From Maribacter luteus (GTDB lineage: Bacteria; Bacteroidota; Bacteroidia; Flavobacteriales; Flavobacteriaceae), in assembly GCF_009674825.1 (NCBI RefSeq), contig NZ_WKJH01000001.1:124001-188000 (forward strand): 64,000 bases of DNA, in the 5' to 3' direction. Each line of letters starts with the position of its first letter. The stretch's first letter is position 1. The notes beneath the pieces were generated by a model. That model did no database searches, was not told where the DNA came from, and saw only the letters and a list, made by a program, of their open reading frames with translations. Of this stretch, positions 42,893 to 45,622 are shown in pieces. Made by a program: the position numbers and the translations under genes.

Positions 42893-43494
42893 AATTTGGG
42901 GGGTATTTTTGTTACATATATTTCTGTTTACTAAATTTTGTTCATTTCACGACAGGGAGCATATGTATGGCTTGTATGGTGCCATACAAAATGATGCAAC
43001 AAGACAATAAGGTTCTTTCTGACTATTGGAAATAATCAGTTAAAACACCAATAAGGTATTTTCAGAAACAATTTTAAGAGTAGAAAATCTAGAGGAATCC
43101 CACTAAAAAAAATCCGCTATTGTCCAGGCAAAAATTTAATTGCGCCTAAAGACCGTACGATGCGATTGATCTGGATTTTGAAAAAAAACTGGATGTTTTT
43201 CTTTTGTTGGAACATCAGGCCGCGATTGCCGATGCAAGTTGTTTTTTGCTAAGTACAAAAAAACGCACTTTTCTTTTCTGAGGTACTGTAGGTTATGGTT
43301 CGCTTCCATTTCTTGGGGGGATTTGGAGGTTAATATTGGTTGATTTTTGTTATACAATGATAGTCAATATTGACCTGAAATTATATTTATTGTAGCTGTT
43401 TTCGTTCAAATGCACTATGTGTTGAAACATTATGCATAAAAGATCATTTTTATCATCAAAAAACCAGAAAATCCTTAATTAACCCTTAAAATTG
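42893..43494. other. Intergenic stretch without a supported gene
   Basis: This 602-bp stretch between the response regulator and the repeat pair holds one operator-like palindrome (42973-42988). Short open frames exist on both strands (for example 43136-43357 minus, and about 42 codons on plus ending 43281), but they have low-complexity composition, no upstream signals and no family resemblance. A decayed gene cannot be ruled out. Confidence 0.5.
42973..42988. promoter_or_regulatory. Inverted repeat TGTATGG-TG-CCATACA upstream of the response regulator
   Basis: Seven-base arms flank a 2-bp centre, and an extra TATGG half lies at 42966-42970. It is 81 bp before the start codon. NarL/LuxR-type regulators bind short inverted repeats, so autoregulation is possible. 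No regulator can be assigned from sequence alone. Confidence 0.4.
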
Positions 43495-43569
43495 AAAAGG
43501 AGGGGAAAAATACTATCCCCCCGGATACCCCTCCTTTTTATCAACCCAATCAGAAAATCTTTATATGCT
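43495..43569. repeat. Structured tandem repeat, unit 1
   Basis: Unit 1 contains the arms AAAAGGAGGGG (43495-43505) and CCCCTCCTTTT (43528-43538), which pair over 11 bp, with ATCCCCCCGGAT inside the loop. A conserved non-palindromic tail follows (ACCCAATCAGAAAATC, then TTTATATGCT). Unit 2 repeats the whole 75 bp after 23 bp. Both strands end in a short T-run after the stem, so it could work as a bidirectional terminator. Confidence 0.75.
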
Positions 43570-43592
43570 TTAATGTTTTGTTTTCCCTAAGT

Positions 43593-43667
43593 AAAAAGGA
43601 GGGAATGAATGCTATCCCCCCGGATACCCCTCCTTTTATCTACCCAATCAGAAAATTTTTATATTCT
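43593..43667. repeat. Structured tandem repeat, unit 2
   Basis: Unit 2 has AAAAAGGAGGG (43593-43603) pairing with CCCTCCTTTT, the identical loop core GCTATCCCCCCGGATA and the tail ACCCAATCAGAAAAT. It differs from unit 1 at about ten positions, mostly in the first half of the loop. It lies 70 bp behind the stop of the PorP/SprF-SPOR gene and reads as a terminator there (CCCTCCTTTTT on the minus strand). The conserved tail is not needed for termination. Confidence 0.75.
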
Positions 43668-43736: not shown

Positions 43737-45416
43737 CTAGTCATCATATAAATTAGCAGCTGTAGCCGTGGTGTTTTCAACCTGCATGATCCACTTCTCA
43801 TCCCTATATTCCCCGTGTAGGTTAGACACAACAGCCGTTTCAGCATCTTTTTTAATGTCATAATCGGCCAAGTACACATAATGAAGTCCGTTTGCTTTAT
43901 TAAAGAACTGTTTCGCATTCAATCCTTGACGTTTTAGGTCATCAATAAAGGCATTTAAGTACTTCTTGTTTTTATATACATTTACAATAACATAGTACCC
44001 GGTCTTTACCCCGATTATATCGGATTGGTCCAACACTTTTATTGGCAACTTCACATAATCTTTATGCTCCATTTCATTCAGGTTGGTCGTTGACTCGGCT
44101 TTATTCGTATTAGTAACCAAAACCGTACGGCTTTCAGTACTGAATTCCTTGTTATTTGTTTTAACGTTATTCTTCAGGTCATTTCGTAATACGCGTACAA
44201 TGGTTTCAAAACGTTTTTCAAATTCTTTGTTCCTTGCTTTTTCCAAAGAATCCTGTCTTAAAATAAGTTCATCCAAGATCAAGCGGTTTTGATAAGCAAG
44301 GTCATTATTGTCAACCACTTCCCTATCCATGTTCTTGGTAAGTGAAGCTTTATCATTGGTTACCTCAGCCTCAGATTTTTGGGCCTTACTTTTCTTTTCG
44401 GCCCTAAGTGCCAATATCTGCTCTTCATAATTCCTAACAATACGATCTATTTTTGCATCTTCGGATGTATCTGCATAACTAGAACTACTATCACCACTAT
44501 CCTTAAAAGTATACGCCAAAGACACCTCATGGTTAAATCCTAAATCGGCATCTTCTTGCTTTATATCCTTCTCCATTAAGTAACCGATAGACATTTTTTT
44601 ACTGATATTGAAACCAAGTCCCATTGACAGGCCATAGGTGTCGTCTAAAGTAGTTTGCAACCATCCGTAATTAGGCATATCCAAAAGTAAAGAACCTAAA
44701 TAAGCCATTGAATTATCGTCATTTCTCCCTACTTGTAACAAGGGCATTAATCGTGCATTTTCAAACAATCCCCTATTGGCCCCAAAAGAATGGGTATACT
44801 GTAAAGATGCTTTAACGCTTTTATCATCGAACTGTGTTAAAAACTCATTGGTAGTTTGATTGAATTTAAAAAGGTCCTCTGCATACAACCCAAAATCAAA
44901 ACTTCCGACAGATAAGGTAACACCAGGTTGAATGGCAATTTTACTTTGCTTGTTCGCTTCCAAGACTTCGGGATCACTCTCATTGGTAGTTATCCTATTT
45001 TTATCCAAACCTTCATTATAGTAGGAAATGTTTGTTCCAAAAGTCAGTTTGCTTTTAGCACCCAAACGGACAGCAGTTGCATAATTCGCATTGAAACCGA
45101 ATTCTTGAACAACTCCTTCCCATTGACTGTACACCCCTATACCCAATGCGGTATTCTCGTTTAACTTATTACTAAATCCCAAGAAATAGTTTTGGCTATT
45201 GTCCTCGAAAGTCGCATACTGGTTTCTATGAAGGATATTGAGGTATGATTTGTTTTCACGAACCAACGAAAACGTCGGGTTGATCAAAAAACGGTTAAAG
45301 AACAATTGATTGTGGTATGCACTCCGAGAGCTCAAACCTGAACTTTCCTCCTGTGCGAACGAGGAAAAGAAGCCTAGCATTATGCAAAACACCATCAGCG
45401 TTCTTGACCTATCCAT
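43737..45416 (-). CDS. PorP/SprF family T9SS-associated membrane protein with C-terminal SPOR-like domain
   Basis: After a signal peptide (MDRSRTLMVFCIMLGFFSSFAQ) residues about 25-315 match the PorP/SprF beta-barrel family (YHNQLFFNRFLINPTFS, LHRNQYATFEDN, GIGVYSQWEG, GSFDFGLYAEDLF, GLGFNISKKMSIGYLME). A polar, charged linker with coiled-coil tendency follows (about 315-450). The last 90 residues resemble a SPOR domain (TGYYVIVNVYKNKKYLNAF, then GLHYVYLADYDIKKDAE), which binds denuded peptidoglycan. SprF helps to export or attach the SprB adhesin through T9SS. This copy has no adhesin gene upstream. The start at 45416 is preferred over 45437 because it begins the signal peptide. Confidence 0.82.
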   Translation of the reverse strand: MDRSRTLMVFCIMLGFFSSFAQEESSGLSSRSAYHNQLFFNRFLINPTFSLVRENKSYLNILHRNQYATFEDNSQNYFLGFSNKLNENTALGIGVYSQWEGVVQEFGFNANYATAVRLGAKSKLTFGTNISYYNEGLDKNRITTNESDPEVLEANKQSKIAIQPGVTLSVGSFDFGLYAEDLFKFNQTTNEFLTQFDDKSVKASLQYTHSFGANRGLFENARLMPLLQVGRNDDNSMAYLGSLLLDMPNYGWLQTTLDDTYGLSMGLGFNISKKMSIGYLMEKDIKQEDADLGFNHEVSLAYTFKDSGDSSSSYADTSEDAKIDRIVRNYEEQILALRAEKKSKAQKSEAEVTNDKASLTKNMDREVVDNNDLAYQNRLILDELILRQDSLEKARNKEFEKRFETIVRVLRNDLKNNVKTNNKEFSTESRTVLVTNTNKAESTTNLNEMEHKDYVKLPIKVLDQSDIIGVKTGYYVIVNVYKNKKYLNAFIDDLKRQGLNAKQFFNKANGLHYVYLADYDIKKDAETAVVSNLHGEYRDEKWIMQVENTTATAANLYDD

Positions 45417-45622
45417 TAATGTAGTATAGCAACTCATCTTTGCGAAATTTTATATTAGACTTTTTAACTTTTACTCTCCAAAAAACAGTGTGTCTTTCGG
45501 GCCTTGGGCTCTTTCGTAAAATATTTAGAATAAACCTATATATACCCGAGTATTCGTGTTATTGGATTTTTGAAGTCCCAAGGTTTTGAATTTTACCCCA
45601 AACTCCTTTACAGATCTTTTTC

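Follow-up and report, generated by a model that had tools for sequence, protein, structure and literature searches.

Are the tandem hairpins that follow a secretion-type gene, for a PorP/SprF-like outer-membrane protein, in the marine bacterium Maribacter luteus a terminator that happens to be duplicated, or do they carry a second signal? The window, that is, the whole stretch of 64,000 nt that was analyzed, is part of one contig in a genome of 4.65 Mb. A first-pass annotation of its sequence had recorded two tandem copies with a 98-bp period and considered them to be more than terminators. The Flavobacteriaceae are termed understudied in PMC9723704, where it is also stated that the widely conserved sRNA Rfp18 comes from Flavobacterium.

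RESULTS

Anatomy of the units

Two units, A and B, and a decayed third lie directly 3′ of the gene for the PorP/SprF-SPOR protein (here porP), upstream of a small ORF and of the gene for an orphan LuxR-type response regulator (here luxR) (Table 1). The PorP protein is nearest to those of Maribacter species (the named ones among the best 80 of 107 loci), with a highest identity of 82%. In 77 of the 80 loci, luxR is found downstream of porP on the same strand; the other three loci end before luxR.

Table 1. Features of the porP–luxR region (window coordinates)
Feature	Position	Strand	Remarks
porP, PorP/SprF-like outer-membrane protein with C-terminal SPOR domain	43737..45437	−	Upstream gene; Pfam PF11751 (E 6e-54), PF05036 (E 5e-5)
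Unit A	43589..43665	−	Adjoins porP; lead TTTTCTGATTGGGTAGAT, terminator stem, inner hairpin UAUCC-GGGG-GGAUA, U tract
Unit B	43490..43567	−	Architecture as in unit A; full AAAAGGAGGGG/CCCCTCCTTTT stem
Relic of a third unit	43444..43477	−	Lead kept, hairpin gone; repeat family D3
Conserved box GCATTTGAACGAAAA	43399..43413	−	One occurrence in the genome at ≤1 mismatch
AAATCCCCCC in the small-ORF leader	43315..43324	−	Complement of the unit's GGGGGGAU
Small ORF, 57 aa	43136..43309	−	Conserved position ahead of luxR; weak constraint on the protein
luxR, response regulator, receiver and LuxR-type helix-turn-helix	42272..42892	−	Pfam PF00072, PF00196

In minus-strand orientation, every unit has a conserved lead of 20 nt, TTTTCTGATTGGGT(A/T)GAT, followed by the stem strand AAGGAGGGG, an inner hairpin, a 3′ bulge of about 8 nt, the stem strand CCCTCCTT, and a short T tract (4–5 U in the RNA). 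The outer stem, AAGGAGGG/CCCTCCTT, is like that of an intrinsic terminator and encloses the second hairpin, TATCC-GGGG-GGATA. The covariance model described below matches unit A at 43593–43650 (39.5 bits) and unit B at 43494–43548 (36.4 bits), both on the minus strand. The two copies make up the repeat families D1 (58 nt, 78%) and D2 (49 nt, 88%) with a spacing of 98–99, in agreement with the period first recorded.

Other details of the first-pass annotation need adjustment. The long stem that it assigned to each copy is exact in 43495–43538 but not in 43593–43650, where one arm ends in GGGA on the plus strand and the innermost G-C pair of the minus strand becomes G.U. Its inner element, ATCC-CCCC-GGAT, is present but longer (TATCC-CCCC-GGATA on the plus strand, UAUCC-GGGG-GGAUA in the RNA), and its conserved tail is real but, on the minus strand, forms the lead TTTTCTGATTGGGT on the 5′ side of the unit. 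The older third unit that it suspected from a faint partial tail at about 43466 is borne out by the relic, whose local alignment to the unit lead scores 35, a value reached by none of 1000 mononucleotide shuffles. A relic unit in the related locus L028 is unsupported, with 562 of 1000 shuffles scoring as high.

The repeat is best read on the minus strand, because both flanking genes are on that strand and because, in the structural alignment, G.U cells exceed A.C cells (25 vs. 3, with a model that was itself built for the minus strand). Folding does not point the same way: compared with dinucleotide shuffles, the two units are not exceptional on the minus strand (z −1.39 and −0.87), whereas the plus strand folds lower than its shuffles (z −2.33 and −4.31), which counts against the minus strand. 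The region contains eight terminator-like sites vs. 4.8 (sd 2.4) in shuffles, and the case therefore rests on conservation and not on folding.

Each unit lies 3′ of a gene encoded on its own strand and combines a stable G+C-rich hairpin with a U tract behind it, the arrangement with which intrinsic (Rho-independent) terminators close an operon. From this anatomy and place we infer that the units terminate the porP transcript, and the double terminator listed among the first suggestions fits the anatomy.

Conservation beyond pairing

In four genomes (group 1: the window, L025, L026, and L028), the first unit, taken in three consecutive blocks of 20 nt, shows mean pairwise identities of 0.85, 1.00, and 0.73, against 0.38–0.48 in the DNA before the unit and 0.42 and 0.31 after it. 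In seven genomes of a second clade (group 2), the blocks of the unit reach 0.88, 0.79, 0.80, and 0.64, with 0.17–0.47 before and 0.46–0.61 after. The blocks of the second unit of the window give 0.20–0.47, the one-unit genomes offering no counterpart to it. The terminator stretch behind luxR was used as a control and has identities of 0.28–0.41 in the four group-1 genomes, an imperfect comparison since, by eye, this stretch shows no clear hairpin in L025 and L026. In five group-2 genomes, the control gives 0.48 and 0.34, with blocks just past the terminator that reach 0.55–0.72.

The GGGG loop is present in 42 of 43 units. The exception, L029, has TAAC, within an inner stem that is preserved although its letters differ (TATCT-TAAC-AGATA). 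Four to five inner pairs are kept in L063, L065, L070, and L072, with C-G or A-U replacing A-U or U-A. In L053, L082, and L108, the inner stem is reduced to three pairs and TCCGGGGGGA is retained.

Multiple alignments put the stems out of register, and a model seeded on 11 sequences of one clade was used to align the remainder. The alignment fitted to the model (40 matches, with 28 rows that are distinct) favors structure and leaves out L029, L053, and L082, which are below the cut; 96.3% of its cells pair. Seven of the ten outer pairs are invariant in the 28 distinct rows. Covariation across copies, suggested at first as a check, gives three pairs with changes on both sides, a number equaled by 94 of 500 shuffles and not significant; the structure is therefore not proven by covariation.

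These data bear on the simplest alternative, namely that the porP operon ends in an ordinary intrinsic terminator and nothing more, whose second copy arose by chance duplication and acts as a back-up. The position 3′ of porP, the G+C-rich stem, and the short U tract agree with it, as does the fact that other genera carry, at this position, a terminator-like hairpin of another sequence (AGCGGGG..CCCCGCT, for example, in Zobellia and Ulvibacterium); moreover, the model also matches four ordinary AAAGG-type terminators elsewhere. However, the stem, the loop, and the lead are conserved in sequence beyond pairing, and above the adjoining DNA, when the stretch behind luxR is at background in the same genomes, and the lead is unnecessary for termination. 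To judge by the sequences, the near letter-for-letter conservation of the hairpin looks like more than an ordinary terminator needs. We thus regard the plain terminator as a serious but rather unlikely explanation, and the view that the repeats are more than terminators is upheld.

At the 3′ end of porP in other genera, a lead like GTTAGTGGG or ACAGTGGG, a small stem, and then a terminator of the GCGGGG..CCCCGC type can be seen by eye (L041, L044, L045, L047, L048, L054, L056, L058, L061, L086–L088, L090, and L098–L104). This element may be a second conserved 3′ UTR RNA of porP.

Recognition by a protein, in the RNA or in the DNA, would be another source of constraint: the invariant TCCGGGGGGA and GGAGG would be the letters recognized, and termination would be a second role. 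The persistence of TCCGGGGGGA in the three loci with a three-pair inner stem (L053, L082, and L108) is consistent with such a site, where letters may outweigh the stem. But the genome has no match to CsrA (PF02599) and none to RRM_1 (PF00076), so that both candidate partners were rejected, and, for a site in DNA, the G.U pairs favor RNA over DNA. A protein-binding site is accordingly held to be improbable.

A G-quadruplex in the G-rich strand had also been put forward, and it would act as a switch. Runs of G4 and G6 do occur on the minus strand, but the hairpin was kept, with no quadruplex predicted above it, in all five sequences (four units and one fragment) folded with quadruplexes allowed. 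In addition, the inner stem of L029, L063, and L070 still pairs despite changed letters, and the first of these loci is without the G loop. A quadruplex switch is very improbable.

A single site in Maribacter and Kriegella

No further copy is found in the own genome, where the best other match has E 0.04 over 26 nt and the exact-core pattern has two matches, the two units themselves. Orthologous porP loci were compared for the best 80 of 107. A unit is found 3′ of porP in 35 of these 80, with the GGGG loop in 34, and all 35 loci are labeled Maribacter or Kriegella; L030, L046, and L083 end soon after porP and are left unclassed. Together with the window, L108, and L124, these 35 loci yield a collection of 38 loci and 43 units, with three copies in L028 and in L067, two in the window, and one in each of the remaining loci. 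Of the named species, M. polysiphoniae has one unit and M. polysaccharolyticus has three.

Among 12 genomes of the genus, seven have copies, each with an adjoining porP (G000, G258, G299, G300, G301, G305, and G307). An additional short second match in G258 and the single weak match in G306 are without porP, and no copy was found in G032, G302, G303, and G304. The core pattern matches in eight of 299 genomes of the family, six times 3′ of porP; the other two matches (L107 and L114) lack the second arm, and porP is absent from the 3 kb around them. The covariance model has matches in eight of 149 family genomes, of which four are at porP and four are weak, on ordinary AAAGG-type terminators with no porP within 3 kb. 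The collections overlap, with stretches in G129, G300, and G258 that are identical to L067, L028, and L025, respectively.

As far as these sequence searches extend, the true copies sit at one orthologous site in all genomes searched, and in some lineages the unit was most likely multiplied by tandem duplication. The search of the genome and of relatives, as first proposed, is thus negative for the genome outside this locus and positive for relatives, in which the copies found lie behind porP. Tandem copies and the stem-loop shape are the only features shared with a dispersed REP/MITE-type extragenic repeat, the mobile element first envisaged; with no further copy in the genome and with copies only behind porP in the relatives searched, that origin is hardly credible.

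A candidate partner in the small-ORF leader

The GGGGGGA of the unit is complementary to a UCCCCCC in the leader of the small ORF, about 165 nt downstream; with the next base, the pairing amounts to 8 bp in the window. The C-rich leader, AACCTCCAAATCCCCCCAAGAAATG, is a strongly conserved island in the gap between porP and luxR, with a protein that is itself poorly conserved. The small ORF has no Pfam match, its length in relatives where it is found is roughly 23–59 aa, and a clear synonymous excess is present in two of 14 pairs compared (one further pair was skipped). It is maybe a leader peptide.

A leader C run of at least five is present in all 35 rows with the loop vs. 11 of 43 without, and one of at least six in 29 of 35 vs. 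two of 43 (18 loci and the window have manually entered leaders, and L052 is assigned with some doubt). In the tree, the supported branches hold three independent contrasts, too few to reach significance, for which at least six informative ones would be required. The average number in agreement is 0.8 (at least five C) or 1.9 (at least six C), with 0 or 0.3, respectively, in disagreement. Cognate duplexes have no advantage over swapped combinations (22 distinct elements, p 0.25). In duplex scans, run without a null, the leader ranks first in 11 of 36 rows and among the top four sense sites in 28; in the window it is outscored by a site within porP.

Several loci count against the pairing: L029 has lost the G loop and kept a C5 leader, and C5–C6 leaders occur without a unit in L039, L051, L052, L097–L102, and L104. 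Across the genome, there is no excess of TCCCCCC before ATG (21 vs. 18 for the reversed pattern) or of C6 leaders (7 vs. 9). The lead of the unit is complementary to four sites in the genome, two of which are the units themselves, and the reversed-pattern control also gives four. On these counts, a set of C6 leaders spread over the genome and a pairing of the lead with further genome sites were both rejected.

The leader of luxR itself is without a C run of at least five in 33 of 34 loop-bearing loci, and luxR is therefore a poor candidate partner; the window, outside that count, has C6 there. In this luxR leader, C6 is found in the window and L028. Where the loop is absent, the C run is of 3–5 in 37 of 43 loci; where it is present, the run is of 1–2 in 29 of 34. 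About 580 nt after porP in L034, L035, L038, and L040, a CCCCCGGAT that precedes luxR is complementary over 9 nt to the ATCCGGGGG of the species' own unit.

Pairing of the G loop with the small-ORF leader is, from the sequence comparisons, the leading hypothesis for a partner, unproven and tentative, and we would lean against it rather than for it.

The box GCATTTGAACGAAAA, another conserved island of this gap, is kept across several genera and lies upstream of the small ORF–luxR transcript. TAnnTTTG is the promoter consensus. The box, about 50 nt before a TAnnTTTG-like promoter, may be a regulatory site of the downstream transcript.

DISCUSSION

The units are probably both a terminator and a selected 3′ UTR RNA of the porP/SprF-type operon. 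The mRNA of that operon, read from the minus strand, would end in these units, each one acting as an intrinsic terminator with a conserved lead before it and a second hairpin, with a GGGG loop, within its stem. From the sequence constraint we infer a role beyond termination: the 3′ end of porP would act as a sequence-specific 3′ UTR RNA, either retained on the mRNA or freed as a short RNA. The phylum (Bacteroidota) makes little use of Shine–Dalgarno sites. The putative partner would be the C-rich region where translation of the small ORF before luxR starts (AAAUCCCCCC...AUG), and the pairing of GGGGGGA with UCCCCCC would repress the small ORF.

Comparison with known RNAs leaves the unit apart. 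Intrinsic terminators share with it the elements already described; unlike the usual ones, the units have a stem, an inner GGGG hairpin, and a lead that are nearly fixed across species, and they occur in tandem copies. The closest functional kind, as presented in PMC9438474, is that of the 3′ end-derived sRNAs, with a conserved mRNA 3′ end, a terminator-like hairpin, and possibly an mRNA as partner; here, too, conserved 3′ UTR sequence extends past the terminator, the short transcript and its partner being putative. The small RNA pair that was also suggested at first is a possible reading.

The FopS RNAs of Bacteroides are similar in belonging to Bacteroidota, in having several copies, and in combining a single-stranded 5′ stretch with a terminator hairpin. 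According to PMC11697453, FopS is a 14-member paralogous family with its own promoters and an RRM-1 partner protein, whereas the unit occupies one locus in a genome with no RRM_1 match. The FopS family of Rfam (RF04319) scores 18.5 bits, below its gathering score of 56. The Flavo-1 RNA motif, named in PMC9723704, is likewise a structured RNA of Flavobacteriaceae; no match to it, nor to any family of Rfam 15, was obtained at gathering score in the window and 15 relatives. The element is not described among the literature matches listed, and an earlier description in print may exist.

The complete scenario joins several propositions: a new, locus-dedicated family of 3′ UTR regulatory RNAs in Maribacter and Kriegella, amplified in tandem in some species, with a nearly invariant GGGGGGA loop that pairs with the C run and through which porP feeds back on the regulator. 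Taken as a whole it is unlikely, and we advance it as a speculation.

The natural versions with one, two, and three copies, together with a candidate partner about 165 nt away, would allow one to test whether a terminator doubles as a regulator of the neighboring operon. If the scenario is true, the expression of a surface apparatus would feed back on the mRNA of the neighboring small ORF–luxR regulator.
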